32,603 nt of DNA, taken from contig CAJCIN010000144.1 in assembly GCA_903970385.1 (NCBI GenBank), forward strand, positions 1 through 32,603, given 5' to 3'. The DNA is from Rhodospirillales bacterium. GTDB lineage: Bacteria > Vulcanimicrobiota > Vulcanimicrobiia > Vulcanimicrobiales > Vulcanimicrobiaceae. Under the pieces are notes generated by a model. The model did not search any database and was not told the DNA's origin. It was given only the letters and a program-made list of their open reading frames with translations. The position numbers and the translations under genes were made by a program. Of the stretch, positions 18,591-32,599 are shown one piece after another. Position 1 is the stretch's first letter, and each line of letters begins with the position of its first letter.

Positions 18591-21500
18591 TCAGAACTTT
18601 CTTTGCAGCGAAAACGAGAAGCCGCTCGCGCCGTTCGCGGGCTCCGTATCGGTCACGGAATTGTTCGTCGAATTGAGCGACTGCGCGCCCTCGAACGTGT
18701 TGAAGCGATTGCTCGCGGGCTGGCTGAAGAAGGTCAGCTGCGCCGCCGTCGATTTGTTCGGGCTCGCGAGCAGACCGATGCTCTGCCGCTGCGGATAGCT
18801 GAACGAATCGGCGAACACGGCGCTCACGTTCTTGAAGATTTTCTTCTGCGCGCCGACGCTCGCGCCGCCGCCCGGCGAATAGTTGATCGCGAGGTTGCTG
18901 AGTCCGACGGCGCCGCCGAGCTGCGACGAGAACGGCTCGAGAATGTTCTGCGTCAGGAGCGAGCCGAGCTGCCCTTCTGCCGCCGCCTGAAACGGATTCT
19001 GCTGCGCCGTCTGCGAGCCCGGCGTGTTCGGAATGCCGCTCACCGCGCCGAGCGCCTGCGCGCCGACGAGGATGCCGACGATCTGTTCGCGCGAGTAGCT
19101 CGGATTCGAATCGAACGCGATGTTGAGTTGCGTGGCGGGGCCCGTCACGTGCAGCGTCACGTCGGTTTGGGGATTGTCGACCGTCGTCGTCGCGAGCGCG
19201 TCGATGTTCGGGATGACGCCCGTGCCGTCGAACGACACCGTCGTCGGATATTGAATGTTGAACGTGCGATAGAAGCTGAGCGTGCCGCCCGTCGAGTCGA
19301 GCTCGCCGAGCACCGTCGGGCTCCCGATCGTGCCGCCCACGGTCAGATCGCCTTTGGCGCCGATGTCGACCGGGCCGCCCTGCACGCGCACGTCGTTCCC
19401 GACGCCGACCGCGAGTTGCAACGACACGGGAAGCGGCGTCGCGCTCGATGCGGGTCCCGCCGCCTTCGGAAGCAGCGCCGTCGTCGGGATGCGTGCCGAC
19501 GTGACCGCGAGCGAACCGCTCACGAGCGCGTTCGAGCGCGCGGCGCGCGCGATCGTCACCGTTCCGTCGATGCGACCCTTGAACAGTGACGGCAGGTCGA
19601 ACACCGCGTTGTTCGAGACGAGCGCGAGCGACCCCGATGCCGACTGCGCGGGCGATTCCAAATCGGGCACGGAGACGTTCCCGCTCGCCGAGATCGTGCC
19701 GCCGCCGACCTTCGCGCTCGTGTCGTGCAGCGTCGCCGTGCGGCCGTTGAACGTCACCTGCGACACGAAGTCGGTGATCTTCGATTTCTCTTGCGGTCCG
19801 ACGAACGAGCCGCTCGTCACGGCGAGCGTTCCGCGCAAGCCGGGTCGTGCGAGCGACCCGACGATTCCGACCTTGCCGTCGAGCAGGCCTGCGAGCTGCG
19901 TGCCCTTCGGGAGCAGCGGCGCGAACTGCGCGAAGTCGACGCGATCCGCGGTGAGTTGGAGCGCGAGCGGCGCGCGCGGGGGTCCGATACCGGGCGGCGT
20001 CATCTCGAGCGGCGCGTATCCGTTCGCGAGCACGCGGCCTCTCTGCAAATCGACCTCGGCCGAGTTCAGCTGCGCGCGCGTGCGCGTCACCGCGATGTCG
20101 GCGCGAGCGCTCGGAACCGTGTACTTGCCGTAGCGGATCGACTCGGCATCGATCGTGTCGGCGAGCGCCGGCCGGGCGAGAGTCCCCGTGATGCGCGCCG
20201 TCGTCGACACCGAGCCCGAGACGTCGTACGCCGTGCCCGTGACCGTCTTGCCGAGCGCGCCGACGTCGGGCGTCTTCGCGACGATCGTCAACGCGAACGG
20301 CGCCTTCGGATCGAGCCCCGCGCTTCCGGATGCCGTCGTCGTCAGGTTGTCGATCGCGAGCACGGCGTTCGTGATCGTGACGCGTCCCGAAGCCGCCCGC
20401 GCGTCGAGCGTCGCCGTGCGGATCGCGACGCGCCCCGCCATGCCGTGCGTGACGTCGGCGTGCGCGGACAGGGCGATCGCGGGGTACGTGCCGCGGATCG
20501 TGGCGTTCGCGTCGGCGAAACCGGAAACGGGTGCTTGAACGTTGGCGGCGGGAAGCCACGTGTCCAGATCGACGTTCGACGCGCGGACGTCGAGCGCGAG
20601 CGCGGTGCGATGCAACGCGTCGCGGAGCGGCGCCGCGGCGGGGAGCACGATGTCGCCGTCCGCGAGAATGCGGCCGGTCGTGCCGCCGACGGCGACGTCC
20701 GTGCGAACGTCACGCCCGCGCGTCGACCAATCCGCGCGCGTCGTGCCGACGTCGAAGCGGCGGAAGCGCGTGTGTTCGAGACGGACGCGGCCGCTCGTGA
20801 CGATGCGATTCGGCTCGTTTCGGACGGACGCCGCGAGGCTGCCCGAGCCGCCGAGCGTGTCGCCCGCGTTGAAGAAGTCGTTGAAGTCCGCGAGCTCGAC
20901 GCGCGGCGCGCGCAACGACGCGGCTTGCGCGTGCTGCGAGACGTCGGCCGCGAAACCGAGCACGGTCGAACCGACGGTCACCGCTCCGTTGCGCGCCGCG
21001 ACGCCCGCGGCCCCACCCGCGAGGGCGACCGACGCGTCGCGAAAACGCAGGCCGTTGATCGAGCCTTCGGGGAGCGCGACGCTGCCGACGATGCGAGGGT
21101 CGGCGCCGCTGCCGCGCACGTCGAGGTCGGCGTCGAGCGTGCCTTCGGGATAGAGTGCGTCGGCACGCGCGATGTGCGCGAGCGTCGCGACGTCCGCTTG
21201 ACGGACGTGTGCGTCGAACGCGTAGGTCGCACGCGCTGGATTGCCGCGCAACCCGGCGACGTCGCCGTCGAGTTCGCCGACGGCGGGTCCGGCGCGGACG
21301 AGCGCGTCGTGGACGTCGAGCCGTCCCGTGTCGTACGTCAGACCCGTGCTCGCGTCCACGGGTAACGCGGCGGCGGCCGCCGCGGCGAGATGCACGCCGC
21401 TCGCGGCGACGCCGGCTTCGACGTGGGGCGAAGTCGCGGTACCGCTGATGGCCGCGACCGCGGAGACGTCGCCGGCGCGCACCGGCAAGCCGGCGGCGCG

Positions 21501-23636
21501 GAGCGACGCGAGATCGATTCCGCTCGCGGAGACGTCGAGCGTTCCGCCGTTGCCGAAACTGCCGTCCGCAACCACGTCGTGACCGTCGATCGTCGCGCGG
21601 GCGCCGTACACGTCGACCGTCCTGCCGCGAACGCGCGCCGTCGCTTCGAGCCCGTCGAGCGCGATGCCGGCGACGGTCGCATCGTGGAACCGCGCGTCGT
21701 GGATCTGGGCGAGGATGTCGTCCGTGCCGCTCGCGACGACGGAGACCGGGATGTCGACGTCTCCCGTCGCGACGATGCGGGCGCCGGCGGCGCGAGCGAT
21801 CGGCGCGAGCGCACCGCGATAGCGCGCGTCGAGCGCCACGTGCGTGCCGTCGACGACCGCCGCGCGTGCCGTCACGTCGTCGATCGGATAGCCGAGCGCG
21901 CGAATGCCGTACGCATGCGCGTTCCCGCCGAGTGCGAAGCGTTTGCCGGCAAACGTTCCCGCCACGTCGCCGTCGAACGTGCCGGAGATCGCGGGCACCG
22001 CGGCCAGGTCGATGCCGGGTAACGCGGGCTGACGGCCGCCGGTATCGAACGCGAAGCGCCGCGCGGAGACGAACGCTCCGCCGGACGACGCCCTCGCGCC
22101 GTCGAGCGCGACGCGAGCGTACAGCTGCCGTGCGCCGGGCCCGTCGAGCACGAAGGGTCCGATCGTTCCCGTACCGTCCGCCGCGACCGAAAAGACGCCG
22201 GAGAGGCGATCGCGCGGAGACGCGCCGTCGACCACGCCCGACGCGGCGAGTTGCGAATCGACGCCGGCGAGCACCGCGTTCGCATGCAACGGCATCGCGC
22301 CGAGCAGCGACGCCGCATACGGAAAACGCTGCATCGGCGCCTCGACGTTCGCGACGATGTCGACCGACGTATGCTTGTCGTGCACGTTCAAGTTGCCGCG
22401 CGCGCTCACGTCCGCACCGTCGTACGCGAGCGCCGTGCGCAGGATCGACGTATCGGGCCCGTGCAGCACGACGAGACCCTTCGGTCCATCGATCGGAATG
22501 CGCTGATACATGACGCGCGGCGAGGCGAAACTCGCGAGCGTCGTCGGCTCCGTCGCGTCGCCTTCGACGAACAGCGCGAACCGGATCGGCCCGGACACCG
22601 GAAGCTTCTTCGCCGCGTCGTTCAACGTGAGCAGGTTTCGCAGGTCGCCGTTCCCGACGATGCCGAGTCGCAGAACCGGCTTTTGCAGATCGTAGATGGC
22701 GCCCGCGATGCGCACGGGGATGCCCGCGATCGAACCGTCGACCTTCGGAATCGCGAGCCCGTCGTCGTAGACACGCAGCGATCCGCGACCGTCGCGCAGG
22801 GGCTTCGCGATGCCGTTGAGGTAAGGCTGGAAGTGATCGAGGTTCGCCGTCACCGATACGTGACGTTGCATCGCACCGGCACGATCCGGCAGACCGTAGA
22901 TGCGCGCGTCGATGTCGTTCAGGACGCCGTCCGCGACGTGCAGCGACGTCGAGTTCAGCGCGTAATCGATCAGCGGCGCGAGCGCGAGCGTCTTCGCGCT
23001 CACGCGCGTGAACTCGTAGCCGCGTTTCTCATCGAGCGTCCCGCGAACGGCGATCGGAAACGTGCCGCCCTCCTCGGTGATCGCGAGATCGACGCTCACG
23101 TGCGACAGACGCTTCGGATCGACGTTCGCATCGGCTTGCAGGTTGCCGATCGCGAGTTTCCGGCTGTGGGCGAAGATGCGCGTCTCGTCGATGACGCCGA
23201 CGGACCCGTCTTCGATGACGAGGTGGATCTTCGGGATGGACGGCGGCGCGCTCTGCTGCGTGTTGTTCGAGGACGGCAGGTTGAAGTTGTAGGTTCCGTC
23301 CTTGTGATGGACGATCGTGATCTTCGGGCGGTCGATCTCGATCGCCGAGATGCCGTAGAGGTACGGACCGCCGAAGACGTCGTGGAGCGAATACGCGACG
23401 TCGATGCGTTCTGCCGTGAACAGCGGTTCGCGGCCGGTGGCGCTCACGTCGGGCCGCGTGATCGTGAGGTGGCCGCCGCGGTTCGTCAGGTCGCCGTACG
23501 TCACGACGTAGCCGGCGAGCCGGCCGCCGAGCGAGATGCCCGTTCGTGCGAGCGGCCCGAGGAAGAGAATAACGCCGAGAACGATGAGAACGAGAACTCC
23601 GGCCCCGATGAGGACGGCGCGGCGCCGACCCTTCAA
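18591..23636 (-). CDS. tamB: TamB-like translocation and assembly module protein (DUF490)
   Basis: A 1681-residue AsmA-like bridge protein. One N-terminal membrane helix (about 8-30, VLIGAGVLVLIVLGVILFL) anchors it in the inner membrane. The long middle part consists of repeated beta-strand segments typical of the groove-shaped periplasmic domain, and the TamB domain occupies roughly the last 230 residues (SGGTLSFYRTFNIQYPTTVS; DSNPSYSREQIVGILVG near 1510). It ends in Lys-Phe with an aromatic residue last, as expected for outer-membrane contact. TamB-type proteins move phospholipids across the periplasm and help insert outer-membrane proteins. The start is TTG 23636 with GGTGG just upstream; no ATG or GTG is available before the membrane helix. 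No TamA/BamA-like gene is adjacent in the window. Confidence 0.9.
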   Translation of the reverse strand: MKGRRRAVLIGAGVLVLIVLGVILFLGPLARTGISLGGRLAGYVVTYGDLTNRGGHLTITRPDVSATGREPLFTAERIDVAYSLHDVFGGPYLYGISAIEIDRPKITIVHHKDGTYNFNLPSSNNTQQSAPPSIPKIHLVIEDGSVGVIDETRIFAHSRKLAIGNLQADANVDPKRLSHVSVDLAITEEGGTFPIAVRGTLDEKRGYEFTRVSAKTLALAPLIDYALNSTSLHVADGVLNDIDARIYGLPDRAGAMQRHVSVTANLDHFQPYLNGIAKPLRDGRGSLRVYDDGLAIPKVDGSIAGIPVRIAGAIYDLQKPVLRLGIVGNGDLRNLLTLNDAAKKLPVSGPIRFALFVEGDATEPTTLASFASPRVMYQRIPIDGPKGLVVLHGPDTSILRTALAYDGADVSARGNLNVHDKHTSVDIVANVEAPMQRFPYAASLLGAMPLHANAVLAGVDSQLAASGVVDGASPRDRLSGVFSVAADGTGTIGPFVLDGPGARQLYARVALDGARASSGGAFVSARRFAFDTGGRQPALPGIDLAAVPAISGTFDGDVAGTFAGKRFALGGNAHAYGIRALGYPIDDVTARAAVVDGTHVALDARYRGALAPIARAAGARIVATGDVDIPVSVVASGTDDILAQIHDARFHDATVAGIALDGLEATARVRGRTVDVYGARATIDGHDVVADGSFGNGGTLDVSASGIDLASLRAAGLPVRAGDVSAVAAISGTATSPHVEAGVAASGVHLAAAAAAALPVDASTGLTYDTGRLDVHDALVRAGPAVGELDGDVAGLRGNPARATYAFDAHVRQADVATLAHIARADALYPEGTLDADLDVRGSGADPRIVGSVALPEGSINGLRFRDASVALAGGAAGVAARNGAVTVGSTVLGFAADVSQHAQAASLRAPRVELADFNDFFNAGDTLGGSGSLAASVRNEPNRIVTSGRVRLEHTRFRRFDVGTTRADWSTRGRDVRTDVAVGGTTGRILADGDIVLPAAAPLRDALHRTALALDVRASNVDLDTWLPAANVQAPVSGFADANATIRGTYPAIALSAHADVTHGMAGRVAIRTATLDARAASGRVTITNAVLAIDNLTTTASGSAGLDPKAPFALTIVAKTPDVGALGKTVTGTAYDVSGSVSTTARITGTLARPALADTIDAESIRYGKYTVPSARADIAVTRTRAQLNSAEVDLQRGRVLANGYAPLEMTPPGIGPPRAPLALQLTADRVDFAQFAPLLPKGTQLAGLLDGKVGIVGSLARPGLRGTLAVTSGSFVGPQEKSKITDFVSQVTFNGRTATLHDTSAKVGGGTISASGNVSVPDLESPAQSASGSLALVSNNAVFDLPSLFKGRIDGTVTIARAARSNALVSGSLAVTSARIPTTALLPKAAGPASSATPLPVSLQLAVGVGNDVRVQGGPVDIGAKGDLTVGGTIGSPTVLGELDSTGGTLSFYRTFNIQYPTTVSFDGTGVIPNIDALATTTVDNPQTDVTLHVTGPATQLNIAFDSNPSYSREQIVGILVGAQALGAVSGIPNTPGSQTAQQNPFQAAAEGQLGSLLTQNILEPFSSQLGGAVGLSNLAINYSPGGGASVGAQKKIFKNVSAVFADSFSYPQRQSIGLLASPNKSTAAQLTFFSQPASNRFNTFEGAQSLNSTNNSVTDTEPANGASGFSFSLQRKF

Positions 23637-26770: not shown

Positions 26771-27505
26771 ATGGCCCCATCCGCAGTCGCCCGTGTCGAC
26801 GGGCGCGCTTTGGACGCGTTGCGTCCCGTCTCGATCGAACCGAATCCGCTCGATTTCGCGGAAGGTAGCGCGCTCATCTCGGTCGGCAACACGCGCGTCC
26901 TGTGCGCGGCGACGATCGAGGAGAAGGTGCCGCCGTGGCTTCGCAATCAGGGCCGCGGCTGGGTCACGGCGGAATATGCGATGTTACCGCGCGCGACGCA
27001 GGAGCGGAACGCGCGCGAAGCCGCTCGCGGCAAGATCGGCGGTCGGACGCACGAGATCCAGCGCTTGATCGGCCGGGCGCTGCGCGCGGTAACCGATCTC
27101 AAATTGCTCGGCGAGCGCAGCGTCATCGTGGATTGCGACGTCTTGCAAGCCGACGGCGGAACGCGTACGGCCGCGATCACGGGCGCCTACGTGGCGCTCG
27201 CGCTCGCGCTGCGGCGCGACTTCACGCCGGGTCCCAAGTGGCCGCTCGTGCGTCACATCGCCGCGGTCAGCGTCGGTTACGTGGACGGTGCGGCCCATCT
27301 CGACCTGCAGTATTCCGAAGACAGTCGAGCCGAGGTGGATATGAACGTCGCGATGACGGATGCCGGCGCGTTCGTCGAGGTGCAGGGCACCGCCGAAACG
27401 AGACCGTTCGATCGGGGGCAGCTCGACGAGATGCTCGCGCTCGCCGAAGGCGGTATCGCGTCGCTCTTCGCCCTCCAGCGTTCGGCGCTCGATCGTGCCG
27501 GTTGA
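26771..27505 (+). CDS. rph: Ribonuclease PH
   Basis: A 244-residue phosphorolytic 3'-5' exoribonuclease that trims tRNA 3' ends. Family strings are clear: [75 protein letters not shown] (the GGTRT phosphate site), [17 protein letters not shown] with the metal-binding aspartates, and [12 protein letters not shown]. It appears complete and active. It begins 60 bases after glmS, so it might have its own promoter or be read through. Its last 11 bases overlap the next, small gene. Confidence 0.95.
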
Positions 27506-27845
27506 TCGCAACCAAATCCGCGCGCTCGCCGACGAGGTGGGGCGCTTCTACGTGCGCGAGCGCACGATGCGTCGCGCGCAGGAAGCCATCCGGACGCTCC
27601 TCGCGAGCGACGTGGAACTCGACGACGCGGCCGTGCGCGGCTATCTGCGCGCCGTGACGACGTACTTCACCGGCTTCGAACGCGAAGCGCGCGGGCATCT
27701 CGCCGACCTCGAGCGCCGTCTCGCGCGCGCGAGTCAATTGCAGTTCAACTTGACGGCCGAGCGCGGCGTCGCCGCGCGCCGCGTCGAGGCGACGCAGGGC
27801 GTCCTGTCGCACCTCGCGGAAGTCGCGCCGCGGTACGGCGCATGA
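27495..27845 (+). CDS. Small helical protein of unknown function
   Basis: A 116-residue charged, helix-rich protein lying between rph and mlaE. It has no signal sequence or membrane segment. The segments [16 protein letters not shown] and [20 protein letters not shown] have heptad-like spacing and may form a coiled coil. I recognise no family. The start is taken as GTG 27495, overlapping rph by 11 bases; the stop overlaps the mlaE start as ATGA. Both overlaps and the sustained codon pattern support it being a real gene. Its coupling to mlaE suggests a link to the lipid transporter, but that is inference only. Confidence 0.65.
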
Positions 27846-28624
27846 GGATGCTCGACGACGTCGGTCGCGGCACGATCGGCCTGCTCGATTACGCCGGCGG
27901 CGTCGCGACGCTGTCGGCGGAGGCGGGTTCGTTCATCGGTCGCCTGCGCATCCGCGTCGCGGAGACGTTCGCGCAAGCCTACTTTCTCGGCGTTCAGTCG
28001 TCCGCGATCGTCCTGCTCACGTCGCTGTTCACGGGCATGGTGATCTCGCTCGAATCGGCCAATCAAGCGAAGAGCTACGGCGCCTCGAGTCTCGTCGGCG
28101 GCGCCGTCGCCTACGTGTGTTCGCGCGAACTCGGCCCGATGCTCACGGCCGTCGTCGTCGCGGGCCGGGCGGGCGCCGCGATCGCGGCCGAGATCGGTTC
28201 GATGGTCGTGACGGAACAGATCGAAGCGCTCGAAGCCCTCGGGCTCTCGCCCGTGCAGATGCTCGTCGTGCCGCGGCTGCTCGCGCTCGTCCTCATGCTG
28301 CCGCTGCTCACGATCTTCGCGGACATCATCGCCATCCTCGGCGGCATGTACCTCGCGCACAACACGGCGCAGATCAGCTACGGCGAATTCATCCAATCCG
28401 CGCGCGAGTTCAGCGCCTTCGACGACTACGTCAAGGGCATGCTCAAAGCGGCGGTGTTCGGAGCGTTGATCGCCGTGATCTGCTGCTACCAGGGATTGCG
28501 CGTGCGCGGCGGTGCGGCGGGCGTCGGCAAGGCGACGACGGCGGCCGTCGTATCGTCGATCATTCTCGTGTTCGTCTCGAACTTCATCATGTCGCTGATC
28601 TTCTTCGGATCGGGGACGAGGTAG
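27842..28624 (+). CDS. mlaE: MlaE-type lipid ABC transporter permease
   Basis: A 260-residue inner-membrane permease of the MlaE family, the membrane part of the Mla transporter that moves phospholipids between the inner and outer membranes. Recognisable strings are LFTGMVISLESANQAKSYGA, RELGPMLTAVVVAGRAGAA, AAEIGSMVVTEQIEALEALG, VVPRLLALVLMLPLLTIFAD and KAAVFGALIAVICCYQGLRV, together with five to six hydrophobic helices and an amphipathic N-terminus. It starts with ATGA overlap on the small helical gene and ends TAG, whose G begins the mlaF GTG. MlaE, MlaF and MlaD follow one another in the standard order. Confidence 0.95.
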   Translation: MRMLDDVGRGTIGLLDYAGGVATLSAEAGSFIGRLRIRVAETFAQAYFLGVQSSAIVLLTSLFTGMVISLESANQAKSYGASSLVGGAVAYVCSRELGPMLTAVVVAGRAGAAIAAEIGSMVVTEQIEALEALGLSPVQMLVVPRLLALVLMLPLLTIFADIIAILGGMYLAHNTAQISYGEFIQSAREFSAFDDYVKGMLKAAVFGALIAVICCYQGLRVRGGAAGVGKATTAAVVSSIILVFVSNFIMSLIFFGSGTR

Positions 28625-29376
28625 TGGCCGCGTACGCGCAGATCGAGAGCGTGACGCTCCGGTTCGGCGAGAAGGTCGTATTGCAGAATTGCACGCTCGA
28701 GATCAAGGAGCGCGCGATCACGTGCTTGATCGGTCTCTCGGGTGCGGGCAAGTCGACGATCCTGCGCCTCCTCAACGGTCTGCGCATGCCGGACGCGGGT
28801 CGCGTGACCGTGCGGGGCCGCGATCTGCGCGATCTCTCGTATCGCGACCTGATCGAACTGCGTCAGAAGATCGGCTTCTCGTTTCAATTCGCGGCGCTCT
28901 TCGACAGTCTGACGATCGGCGACAACGTCGCGATGCCGCTGCGCGAGCACACGCGCATGTCGAAGCGCGAGATCGACGAGATCGTCGTGCAGACGCTCGA
29001 CTCGGTCGGGCTCTCGGGCGCGCGCGACCGGATGCCGTCGCAACTGTCCGGCGGCATGCTCAAGCGGGCCGGGTTCGCCCGGGCGATCGTCACGAACCCG
29101 GAGTGCGTGCTCTACGACGAGCCGACGACGGGCCTCGATCCGATCATCACGCACGTGCTCACCGACACGATCAAACGGCTGCGCAAGCAGCTGAATTCCA
29201 CGGCGGTCGTCGTGTCGCACGATCTCGGGAGCATCTACGCCATGGCGGACTACGTCGCCATGCTCTTCGAAGGGGCGATCATCGCCTACGGAACGGTCGA
29301 CGAACTCAAGCGCTCGCCGAATCCGATCGTCCAGCAATTTCTCCAGGGAAGCGAGGTCGGTCCGATACCGCTTTGA
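28624..29376 (+). CDS. mlaF: MlaF-type ABC transporter ATPase
   Basis: A 250-residue ABC ATPase driving the MlaE permease. Motifs are Walker A GLSGAGKST, Q-loop region FSFQFAALFDSLTIGDNV, signature LSGGMLKRAGFARAI, Walker B CVLYDEPTTGLDP and the switch His in VVVSHD. The LFDSLT and LSGGM variants are typical of MlaF rather than of sugar or amino-acid importers. GTG 28624 shares its G with the mlaE stop (TAGTG), so translation is coupled. A gap of 22 bases separates it from mlaD. No MlaB-type STAS protein is visible next to it. Confidence 0.94.
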   Translation: MAAYAQIESVTLRFGEKVVLQNCTLEIKERAITCLIGLSGAGKSTILRLLNGLRMPDAGRVTVRGRDLRDLSYRDLIELRQKIGFSFQFAALFDSLTIGDNVAMPLREHTRMSKREIDEIVVQTLDSVGLSGARDRMPSQLSGGMLKRAGFARAIVTNPECVLYDEPTTGLDPIITHVLTDTIKRLRKQLNSTAVVVSHDLGSIYAMADYVAMLFEGAIIAYGTVDELKRSPNPIVQQFLQGSEVGPIPL

Positions 29377-29398: not shown

Positions 29399-31066
29399 AT
29401 GAACAAACAAGCTCAGGTCGGACTCTTCACGATCCTCGGTCTCGTCGCAGTCTTCGCCGTGTTTTTCGTACTCGCGGATTTCGGGACGCGTGCCGCCGGT
29501 TACAAGATCGGCGTCCATTTTCGCGCGGCCTCCGGCTTGCGTAACGGCGCGATCGTCTATCTCAGCGGCGTGCCGATCGGTGCGGTCGACGATATCTCGC
29601 TCTTGCCCGATTATTCGACGGAAGTCCATCTCGCGATCAAGCCGAGTTTCGAGATTCCGGTGAACGCACGTTTCCTGATCCAAGCGCCGATCACGGGCGA
29701 TCCGTCGGTGTTGATCGAGCCGCCCGTCGACGTCGACCGGAGCGTCGCCACGCTTCCGCACGAGGTGTTGCCGATCGAGCAGCAGCCGCGCGGCACGAAT
29801 CCCACGTCGTTCGCGGACCTCCTCGAACAGGGGCAGGGCGAAGTCCGCCGGCTCGACGACCTGCTCGCCGAGTTCCAGAAGTCGGAGCCCGTCCTTCTCG
29901 CCGAGCTGCAATCGACGCTGCACAACGCGAACGCGCTGACGACGAACGCGAACGTCTCGCTCTCACGCGTCACGACGAAGGTCGAGGCGCTGACGGATTC
30001 GCTGCAGCGCAACCTGACGGTGGCGAGCGACAACGTCGTCAGCCTCACGGGCGGCCTCAATAGCGTCGTACAACGCGATTCGGTGCAGGTCGACGCGCTG
30101 CTCGCACAACTGTCGCACACCTCGAAATCGTTCGGCGAGACGGTGGATTCGCTGCACGACGTCGCGACGAACCCGCACGTGAAGGCGAACCTGATCGACA
30201 CGACGCGCGACTTCGCCGCGACGGCGAAGGCGTTCGCCGAACTCACGAACGATCTGCGCAACGTCACCGGGAACCCGCAGACGCAAGCGCAACTGCGCGA
30301 TACCGTCGCGCAGCTCGACGCCACGTCGCAGAAAGTGGATTCGCTCGTTGGCCAGCTCGGCGGGACGTCGAAGGTGTACGGTGTCGATCCGAACGCGTCG
30401 CCGCCCGCGAGCGCGACGCCCGTGCCGCCGGGATTCGTCCCGACGTCGCAGCCGGTGCTGCCGCCGGCGGCGGTCTCATCGTCCGCACCGGCTCCTGGCG
30501 AATCGTCACCCGCGTACGGAGCGCCGGCCGGAACGTCGCGCGATCGCGGATCGCCGGGCGCGCCGTCGAGTTCGACCGCGCTCGCGAATTTGCGAAACCG
30601 GCTGAACGGTTTTACGAAAGATCTCGTGCAGTTGCAAGTGCGCGTCGGGCAACTCTCCGTGGCGCGGCCCGGCAGCTTGACGACGAACACGTCGCCGCTG
30701 CTCACGAAGGATCGCGGCCCCGAATCCGACTTCAACCTGTTGATCTTACCGCGCGCGCGCACGGGTCTAGAAGCGGGCGTCAACGACGTCGGGAGCAACG
30801 GAACGTCGACGGCGAACCTGCTGCTCTTGAATCGGAGCGGCGGCCTGACGTACGGCGGCGGCATCGAGTATTCGCGGCTCGGGCTCACGACGAGCGTGGC
30901 GCGCGGGCGCTTCGGATTCGAAGCGCGCGCGTACGATCTCCGGCATCCGACGCTCGACTCGTACCTCAACGTGTTCGCCACCCCGAAGTTTCAGGTCTTC
31001 GGCGGCGAGCGCGATCTCAACCACGTCGATCGCCGTTCGGTGTTCGGACTTCAATTCGAGTTCTAG
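29399..31066 (+). CDS. mlaD: MlaD-type MCE protein with C-terminal beta-barrel-like domain
   Basis: A 555-residue protein, about three times the length of E. coli MlaD. Residues 7-27 form a membrane anchor (VGLFTILGLVAVFAVFFVLA), 36-112 an MCE domain (VHFRAASGLRNGAIVYLSGV), and about 137-325 long helices. A Pro/Ser/Ala-rich linker spans 330-392, and a strand-rich region runs from about 443 to 555. The strand-rich region has alternating hydrophobic patterns (LTYGGGIEYSRLGLTTSV, GRFGFEARAYDL, YLNVFATPKFQVFGGERDL) and ends FGLQFEF with a terminal Phe, like an outer-membrane beta signal. MCE proteins carry lipids through a hydrophobic channel. A fused MlaD of this layout has been reported in the diderm Firmicute Veillonella as a trans-envelope bridge; the same role here is inference. 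Confidence 0.88.
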   Translation: MNKQAQVGLFTILGLVAVFAVFFVLADFGTRAAGYKIGVHFRAASGLRNGAIVYLSGVPIGAVDDISLLPDYSTEVHLAIKPSFEIPVNARFLIQAPITGDPSVLIEPPVDVDRSVATLPHEVLPIEQQPRGTNPTSFADLLEQGQGEVRRLDDLLAEFQKSEPVLLAELQSTLHNANALTTNANVSLSRVTTKVEALTDSLQRNLTVASDNVVSLTGGLNSVVQRDSVQVDALLAQLSHTSKSFGETVDSLHDVATNPHVKANLIDTTRDFAATAKAFAELTNDLRNVTGNPQTQAQLRDTVAQLDATSQKVDSLVGQLGGTSKVYGVDPNASPPASATPVPPGFVPTSQPVLPPAAVSSSAPAPGESSPAYGAPAGTSRDRGSPGAPSSSTALANLRNRLNGFTKDLVQLQVRVGQLSVARPGSLTTNTSPLLTKDRGPESDFNLLILPRARTGLEAGVNDVGSNGTSTANLLLLNRSGGLTYGGGIEYSRLGLTTSVARGRFGFEARAYDLRHPTLDSYLNVFATPKFQVFGGERDLNHVDRRSVFGLQFEF

Positions 31067-31185: not shown

Positions 31186-31668
31186 GTGACGCACGGCGTG
31201 CAACTCGCGGACGCCCCGCCGACGCTCGCGACGCTGGTGACTGCGCAATTCCTACATGCGAGCGTCCCGCACGTCGTCGCGAACATGCTCTTCCTCGCGG
31301 TCTTCGGACCGGCGATCGAGCGTCTTCTCGGCCCCGCGCGGTTCGTCGCGCTCTACCTCCTGTGCGGCGTACTCGGCAACGTCGCGCAGATCTCGTTCGA
31401 TCCGGGCAGTCACGTTCCGGAGATCGGCGCGTCGGGGGCGATCGCGGGGATCCTCGGAGCGTACGTGCTCCGCTTCCCGGCCGCGCACGTGTTCTTGCGC
31501 ATCCCCGCGTTCGTCGTGATCGGGCTCTGGGCGGTGTTCCAATTCGAGCACGGCTTCGGCGCGCTCGCGACGAACGTGCTCTCCGAACGGGGCGGTACGA
31601 CCGCCTATTTCGCGCACATCGGCGGATTTCTCACCGGCGTCTTCTCGATCGGATTCATCAGGCGGTGA
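31186..31668 (+). CDS. Rhomboid family intramembrane serine protease (start unclear)
   Basis: From GTG 31186 the protein has 160 residues and carries the rhomboid core: HVVAN (the HxxxN motif), the catalytic serine in GASGAIAGILGAY, and the catalytic His in AHIGGFLTG. Rhomboids cut membrane proteins inside the bilayer. In the same frame, 31066-31185 encodes what looks like the first rhomboid membrane helix (FAVPAVVAANVAAFCYEASL) and the following loop, but there is no ATG, GTG or TTG in frame upstream, and the frame runs back into mlaD. The gene therefore either starts at a rare codon such as ATT 31054, has lost its N-terminus, or carries a sequence error. It lies directly after the mlaD stop and 4 bases before panE. 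Confidence 0.75.
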   Translation: MTHGVQLADAPPTLATLVTAQFLHASVPHVVANMLFLAVFGPAIERLLGPARFVALYLLCGVLGNVAQISFDPGSHVPEIGASGAIAGILGAYVLRFPAAHVFLRIPAFVVIGLWAVFQFEHGFGALATNVLSERGGTTAYFAHIGGFLTGVFSIGFIRR

Positions 31669-31672
31669 AGGT

Positions 31673-32599
31673 ATGAACAACGACGTGCGACCGCGGGTCG
31701 CGATTCTCGGCGCGGGCGCGATGGGCACGCTGTTCGCGTACCGGCTCGCCGAACGTTCGGACGTCACGCTGATCGACGTGCGGGGCGATGTCGTCGAGAC
31801 GATCAACGAGACGGGCGTCCAGGTGGACGACGAAGAGCCGCGGCGCGTCGTCGCGACGCAAGATCCGGCCCGCGCCTTCGCGACGAACTTTCTGTTCGTG
31901 TTCGTGAAGGCGCCGAACACGCTCGCCGCCATCCGGCCCTTCGCCGGCAAACTCAATCCGGCGACGCCGATCGTCTCGCTGCAGAACGGCCTCGGCAACG
32001 AGGAGGCGATCAAGACCGCGCTCGGGGGGACCGTGCCGCTCGTCATCGGCATCACGAACGAAGCGGGCCTCGCCGTCGGTCACGGACGCTCGCGGCGACA
32101 GGGTGTCGGCGTGACGGTCGTCGGTTCCGCGGGCGCGTCGACGGCGACGGTGCGTGCGGTCGGAGAGCTGGTCGAGCAGGCCGGCCTCGCCTGCCACGTC
32201 GCGTACGACATCCGGCCGCATCTGTGGGGTAAACTGCTCGCGAACGCCGCGATCAATCCGATTTCCGCGCTCGCGGACGCGAAGAACGGCATCGTCGCGA
32301 GCGACCCCGACGCGGCCGAACTCGCACGCGCCGTCGCGCTCGAAGCGGCCGCCGTCGCGCGCGGCTTGCGCGTCAATCTGCCGTTCAGCGACGCGTGGGA
32401 ATACGTGCGCGACGTCGTCGCCTCGAGCGCGGAAGATCGCAACTCGATGACGATCGATCTCGGCGCGCGGATGAAGACGGAGATCGATCAGGTCAACGGC
32501 GCGATCGTCGCGGCGGGCAGACGGCTCGGCATCCCGACGCCCTACAACGACGCGCTCCTGCGCCTCGTCAAAGCAAAGGAAAACGCGCCGCGTGAGTGA
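31673..32599 (+). CDS. panE: 2-dehydropantoate 2-reductase (ketopantoate reductase)
   Basis: A 308-residue NADPH-dependent enzyme that reduces ketopantoate to pantoate for coenzyme A synthesis. The N-terminal nucleotide-binding fold has ILGAGAMGTLFAYRL (GxGxxG), followed by FVFVKAPNT and SLQNGLGNEE. The catalytic lysine is Lys187 in HLWGKLLANAAINPISAL, and the C-terminal domain has the typical DRNSMTIDLGARMKTEID with the substrate-binding Ser/Asn and Glu. It appears complete. It follows the rhomboid gene by 4 bases; GAAGG lies very close to the ATG. It is last in the + strand run and ends 4 bases before the window edge. Confidence 0.93.
   Translation: MNNDVRPRVAILGAGAMGTLFAYRLAERSDVTLIDVRGDVVETINETGVQVDDEEPRRVVATQDPARAFATNFLFVFVKAPNTLAAIRPFAGKLNPATPIVSLQNGLGNEEAIKTALGGTVPLVIGITNEAGLAVGHGRSRRQGVGVTVVGSAGASTATVRAVGELVEQAGLACHVAYDIRPHLWGKLLANAAINPISALADAKNGIVASDPDAAELARAVALEAAAVARGLRVNLPFSDAWEYVRDVVASSAEDRNSMTIDLGARMKTEIDQVNGAIVAAGRRLGIPTPYNDALLRLVKAKENAPRE

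Follow-up and report, generated by a model that had tools for sequence, protein, structure and literature searches.

The mlaD gene of a soil bacterium from the little-studied phylum Candidatus Eremiobacterota encodes, in a single chain, an MCE domain, long helices, a Pro-rich linker and a predicted C-terminal outer-membrane β-barrel. We consider it probable (roughly 0.8) that this MlaD bridges the envelope in one piece, as part of a minimal MlaEFD lipid transporter in which the barrels would moor a lipid tunnel to the outer membrane. Directly established are the gene fusion, its conservation, the predicted fold and the absence of MlaA, MlaC and LolA.

The window analyzed here, a stretch of 32,603 nucleotides, belongs to a genome of 3.26 Mb that is 91% complete and in which mlaD is the only MCE gene found. 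Eremiobacterota are a diderm phylum: BamA and LPS genes have been reported for them (Ward et al. 2019, PMC6664022), and thin sections of a cultured member, Vulcanimicrobium alpinus, show an LPS-covered outer membrane (PMC9758169).

The genes mlaE, mlaF and mlaD lie head to tail on the forward strand (Table 1), and the order rph-ORF-mlaE-mlaF-mlaD is conserved within the class. The likely start of mlaF is the GTG at 28621, giving a 4-base overlap with the mlaE stop. The ORF of about 110 codons next to rph overlaps the mlaE start (ATGA), and residues Y57, F58, Q81, N85, A88, E89 and R96 of its product are invariant. Searches of Pfam and the PDB found no relatives of it, and no STAS gene was recognised in the local mla operon. 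Judging from its position and conservation, the ORF is a probable member of the mla operon and its product a candidate for a new Mla subunit. Downstream of mlaD there are a rhomboid-family gene (31186-31668, +) and a ketopantoate reductase (ApbA/PanE) gene (31673-32599, +), in an order shared by most of the closest relatives. The reverse strand of the window also encodes, at 18591-23636, a TamB-domain protein (E 2e-32) that is the second in this genome; it is separate from the bamA-adjacent tamB on contig C46, and only some relatives have such a second copy. An antisense ORF of 456 aa across mlaD (29611-30981) was rejected as coding, the forward frame being the one conserved across the phylum.

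Table 1 The mla operon in the window and the domains of its MlaD protein
Feature	Position	Strand	Evidence
ORF of ~110 aa, unknown family	27495..27845	+	Synteny between rph and mlaE in the class
mlaE, permease	27842..28624	+	Pfam MlaE, E 5e-77; synteny across the class
mlaF, ATPase	28621..29376	+	Pfam ABC_tran, E 8e-30; start read from sequence
mlaD, whole gene, 555 aa	29399..31066	+	Pfam MlaD above cut-off
Predicted inner-membrane TM helix, residues 3-31	29405..29491	+	Sequence; AF2 helix
MCE domain, residues 34-107	29498..29719	+	Pfam; AF2 strands, pLDDT 91-97
Helical (putative tunnel) region, residues 138-319	29810..30355	+	AF2 helices; lengths; hydrophobic period
Pro/Ala/Ser-rich disordered linker, residues 320-389	30356..30565	+	Low pLDDT; variable length among relatives
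Helix leading into the barrel, residues 390-407	30566..30619	+	AF2
Predicted ten-stranded β-barrel, residues 410-555, terminal Phe	30626..31063	+	AF2; alternation; 102/107 genomes

Pfam, AF2 and the sequence agree on the layout outlined in the original prediction: an MCE domain (a single Pfam match, residues 34-91, E 1.7e-9) is followed by long helices and then by a Pro-rich linker, and the last residue is Phe. In the linker the AF2 pLDDT falls below 50 at residues 333-379 and 381-390, and the mutual placement of the domains is undefined in the full-length model, a monomer with a pTM of 0.36. When residues 388-555 were folded alone (AF2, 57 aligned sequences), the mean pLDDT was 93.1 and the pTM 0.81, with ten strands that are common to the isolated-tail and full-length models; in the latter they comprise residues 410-419, 441-449, 455-464, 471-480, 483-490, 493-502, 505-512, 518-528, 531-538 and 546-554. 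Between alternating positions of these strands, mean hydrophobicity differed by 1.22 units, against 0.60 ± 0.14 in shuffled sequences, none of which reached this value in 10,000 trials. Outward faces are 80% aliphatic or aromatic and 3.6% charged, compared to 26% and 27% for the inward faces; since faces were assigned by hydrophobicity, the size of this contrast is partly built in, a circularity from which the shuffle test is free. The turns 2-3, 4-5, 6-7 and 8-9, on the side of the termini, have 2-5 residues, the loops 1-2, 3-4, 7-8 and 9-10 have 5-22 and loop 5-6 has 2, an arrangement in the model that is roughly typical of outer-membrane barrels, where periplasmic turns are short and outer loops longer. 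Gly550 is invariant, and the C-terminal residue is Phe in 36 of the 57 MlaD sequences. Foldseek comparison with the PDB gave top matches that are almost all outer-membrane barrels (porin 2por, OmpU, OMPLA, OmpA, AlkL), with weak scores (best E 3e-3, TM 0.3-0.5) that support a fold class and name no relative. A sequence-profile search of the PDB likewise identified no solved-barrel relative of the tail, its single match (E 0.41) being attributable to chance.

The proposal of a C-terminal outer-membrane barrel thus gains support from ten predicted strands at a pLDDT of 93 and an alternation beyond that of all shuffles. Its borders have to be moved: a C-terminal domain is indeed present, but the start given for it at 30725 (residue 443) is too late and omits both strand 1 and the helix 390-407. 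Rather than a tail of about 110 residues, the barrel takes up the last ~146, from residue 410, and the whole C-terminal domain including the preceding helix is better bounded as 30566-31063.

The fusion is not a peculiarity of one genome. Of 107 genomes drawn from across the phylum, all at least 85% complete, 102 have a match to the tail profile and 105 a match to PF02470. Wherever tail and MCE domain lie on one contig, the two share an open frame in which the tail follows the MCE domain. At the distance of family f3, within the class, identity is 36% for the barrel core, 40% for the MCE domain and 11% for the linker. Missing tail matches within the class were not counted as losses: in G043 a contig start truncates MlaD, and in G052 MlaD itself goes unmatched. 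The MlaD of family f11 is different, with 449-464 aa and no barrel, and is perhaps of other origin; at loci L123 and L124 the motif GKGTLGK recurs in it and it ends in RKYLTVQFSVVKIF. In families f13-f16 the barrel-bearing MlaD is accompanied by a second MCE protein (loci L125, L127 and L129), which in most cases has 350-385 aa; the two of these that were read, L125 and L127, lack the barrel. A second short MCE protein, in an open frame of 311 aa, also occurs in genome G008. The named records closest to the MlaD tail are mostly labelled Candidatus Eremiobacterota, Vulcanimicrobiota or WPS-2; a scan of named genomes with a narrower tail alignment returned essentially Eremiobacterota-like records only and no Veillonella record, and a tblastn search of a deep-branching tail against plasmids, seeking other phyla, gave no match.

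The partners known from other Mla systems are missing. No homologue of MlaA or of MlaC was found in the source genome and 60 relatives (0/61 for each) by searches whose positive controls match in E. coli and Caulobacter, in line with the earlier suggestion that neither would be needed as a separate protein; intact mlaA and mlaC genes had been named in advance as evidence against the bridge. With MlaE, MlaF and MlaD present, the system therefore consists of MlaEFD only. LolA is absent from all 21 genomes searched, and BamA and TamB are both present in each of them. LpxC was found in 20 of the 21, the exception being the source genome. In the relatives the gene order is TamB, BamA, LpxC, with LpxC a few kb past BamA, and the missing match is most simply explained by contig C46, which carries BamA and TamB, ending before the place of LpxC; for this reason the gap was rejected as a sign of missing LPS. 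The partner pattern matches that published for diderm Terrabacteria, from which MlaABC and Lol are absent (PMC10665443).

The outer-membrane location and insertion, the hexamer, and the transport with its substrate and direction we infer as follows. By analogy with the MlaFEDB, PqiB, LetB and Mce1 structures, six MlaD chains anchored in the inner membrane would sit as a hexamer on MlaE2F2. Their MCE domains would form a ring, and the helices of ~180 residues a hydrophobic tunnel nearly spanning the periplasm. The helical region of ~182 residues would measure ~27 nm if helical throughout, and such a tunnel could suffice for a periplasm like that of Veillonella parvula, where the MlaD model is 23.5 nm long and the periplasm 24 nm wide (PMC10665443). 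Past the Pro-rich linker, each chain would end in a ten-stranded barrel inserted in the outer membrane by BamA. The most likely role of the barrels is to moor the mouth of the tunnel at the outer membrane, without passing phospholipid themselves; entry or exit of lipid would take place at the tunnel mouth, at the inner leaflet, driven by ATP hydrolysis by MlaF. A MlaC shuttle and a MlaA lipoprotein would then not be needed, because lipids would enter or leave the tunnel directly at that leaflet. The idea that one polypeptide could reach from the inner to the outer membrane is supported; counted against it is that six separate ten-stranded barrels per complex would be unusual.

As in Veillonella, transport would probably be retrograde, and TamB would serve the opposite direction. 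Alternatively, the barrel is real and transport is mainly forward, from the inner to the outer membrane, or its substrate is not phospholipid but, for example, the glycolipids reported for V. alpinus; this departs from the explanation above in substrate or direction only. Sequence cannot reveal direction, and the lipids of V. alpinus, glycolipids included, are largely unidentified (PMC9758169). We nevertheless hold this alternative to be unlikely, though it is the strongest of those considered, as the V. parvula mla mutants and their tamB suppressors indicate retrograde glycerophospholipid transport (PMC10665443) and TamB, the presumed forward route, is present here as well.

Whether the barrel is an anchor or a passage for lipid was left open for V. 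parvula by Grasekamp et al. (PMC10665443), and the lengths of the MlaD segments bear on this question. Of 52 class members, 36 have a stretch of 177 residues between the conserved anchors Leu141 and Leu317; the others depart from this length by -7 (6 members), -11 (5), -18 (1) or +7 (4), and in each case one gap near residues 186-203 accounts for the difference. When only the TM-MCE and barrel parts of MlaD are used for the tree, the 177-residue state needs 10 changes, at least 7 of them forced by well-supported branches, and the -11 state needs 5, at least 4 of them forced, which puts the number of independent events in the class at seven or more, and probably ten. Along the helices, hydrophobicity repeats every 3.4-3.6 residues. 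Steps of 7, 11 and 18 residues correspond to about 2, 3 and 5 whole helix turns, so that the helices keep their face and register, as would be expected of parallel tunnel helices holding one face to the lumen. Beyond the class, deep lineages show gaps of 7, 11, 4, 2 and 9 residues, and the steps hold cleanly only inside the class, whose sequences can be aligned reliably. The linker, by contrast, ranges in the class from 9 to 82 residues with no preferred size. These lengths suggest a register-locked tunnel with the barrel on a free tether in the class Eremiobacteria. As far as we could find, both the length steps of the helical region and the free linker length are new.

In the predicted monomer, conserved charged and polar side chains (R415, D444, N473, D520 and R538) point into the barrel, which looks too narrow and too polar inside for phospholipid passage. 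The free length of the linker and the polar inward face of the barrel therefore favour an anchoring role over a rigid continuation of the tunnel. It is possible, at somewhat less than even odds, that the full arrangement is a mooring outside the channel, with a register-locked tunnel, six Pro-rich tethers of free length and six closed barrels, and with the product of the small ORF perhaps a new subunit in the place of MlaB. The barrels might instead fuse or close round the tunnel end to give a coaxial outer-membrane pore, and hence one continuous lipid channel from the outer leaflet. Barrel fusion as in TolC was raised as possible by Grasekamp et al. (PMC10665443), and the linker has just 5-16 residues in five of the six deep-lineage sequences of the phylum. 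Such a pore nevertheless seems improbable here, given the inward-facing charges of the predicted monomer barrel and a class linker whose disorder, Pro-richness and variable length ill fit a rigid channel; a path for lipid through one rigid continuous conduit is argued against by the flexibility of that linker. A soluble periplasmic or surface-associated β-domain that binds peptidoglycan or another outer-membrane protein, one of the outcomes named in advance as counting against the proposal, is very improbable: the AF2 model by itself sets no membrane placement, but the outward sides of the strands are hydrophobic with hardly any charge, the strand number is even, the C-terminus is hydrophobic with an invariant Gly, and the fold matches, if weak, are mostly to outer-membrane barrels.

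Taken across the phylum, the sequence evidence makes the barrel-bearing one-piece MlaD, here proposed as a moored bridge, the standard form in a deep-branching diderm lineage that has no MlaA, MlaC or LolA, and supports the view of the E. coli Mla system as the exception. In the literature available to us we found no paper on Mla in Eremiobacterota. A publication of 2023 had already described the architecture, its independence of MlaA and MlaC and how widely it occurs among diderm Terrabacteria, and the present case is a well-supported new member. The extension to a further deep-branching lineage, as originally suggested, holds insofar as the main text of Grasekamp et al. does not name Eremiobacterota, but it is a small step, the type being already known as widespread. 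The register-locked tunnel and the free linker bear on whether the Veillonella barrel passes lipid or merely anchors, a question that becomes testable through linker length and stiffness, and a cultured relative, V. alpinus, exists.

The closest known system is that of V. parvula, in which MlaD functions independently of MlaA and MlaC and its barrel fractionates with the outer membrane by experiment (Grasekamp et al. 2023, PMC10665443); the likeness to this trans-envelope MlaD drawn at the outset holds at the level of architecture. Both organisms are diderms with LPS, have MlaEFD only and possess TamB, and both MlaD proteins combine a TM helix, a single MCE domain, long helices and a C-terminal ten-stranded barrel, predicted in the present case. 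In contrast to the 419 aa of V. parvula MlaD, the protein described here has 555 aa, and its barrel is preceded by a disordered Pro-rich linker and a short helix; its operon lies beside rph and a conserved small ORF rather than tolC and tamB, and it is known from sequence and prediction. With the MlaA-MlaC-MlaBDEF system of E. coli it shares MlaE, MlaF and the TM-MCE part of MlaD, whereas the short E. coli MlaD (183 aa) needs the MlaC shuttle and MlaA. Mycobacterial Mce1 (PMC9882608), whose chains are reached by the MlaD sequence profile via the helical part, resembles it in a single MCE ring and a long hexameric helical needle across the periplasm, but is a hetero-hexamer whose end portal takes one strand from each of six chains instead of a barrel per chain. 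PqiB and LetB (YebT) also form MCE rings, and PqiB has a helical needle toward the outer membrane as well, yet in both each chain contributes to several MCE rings and carries no outer-membrane barrel itself.
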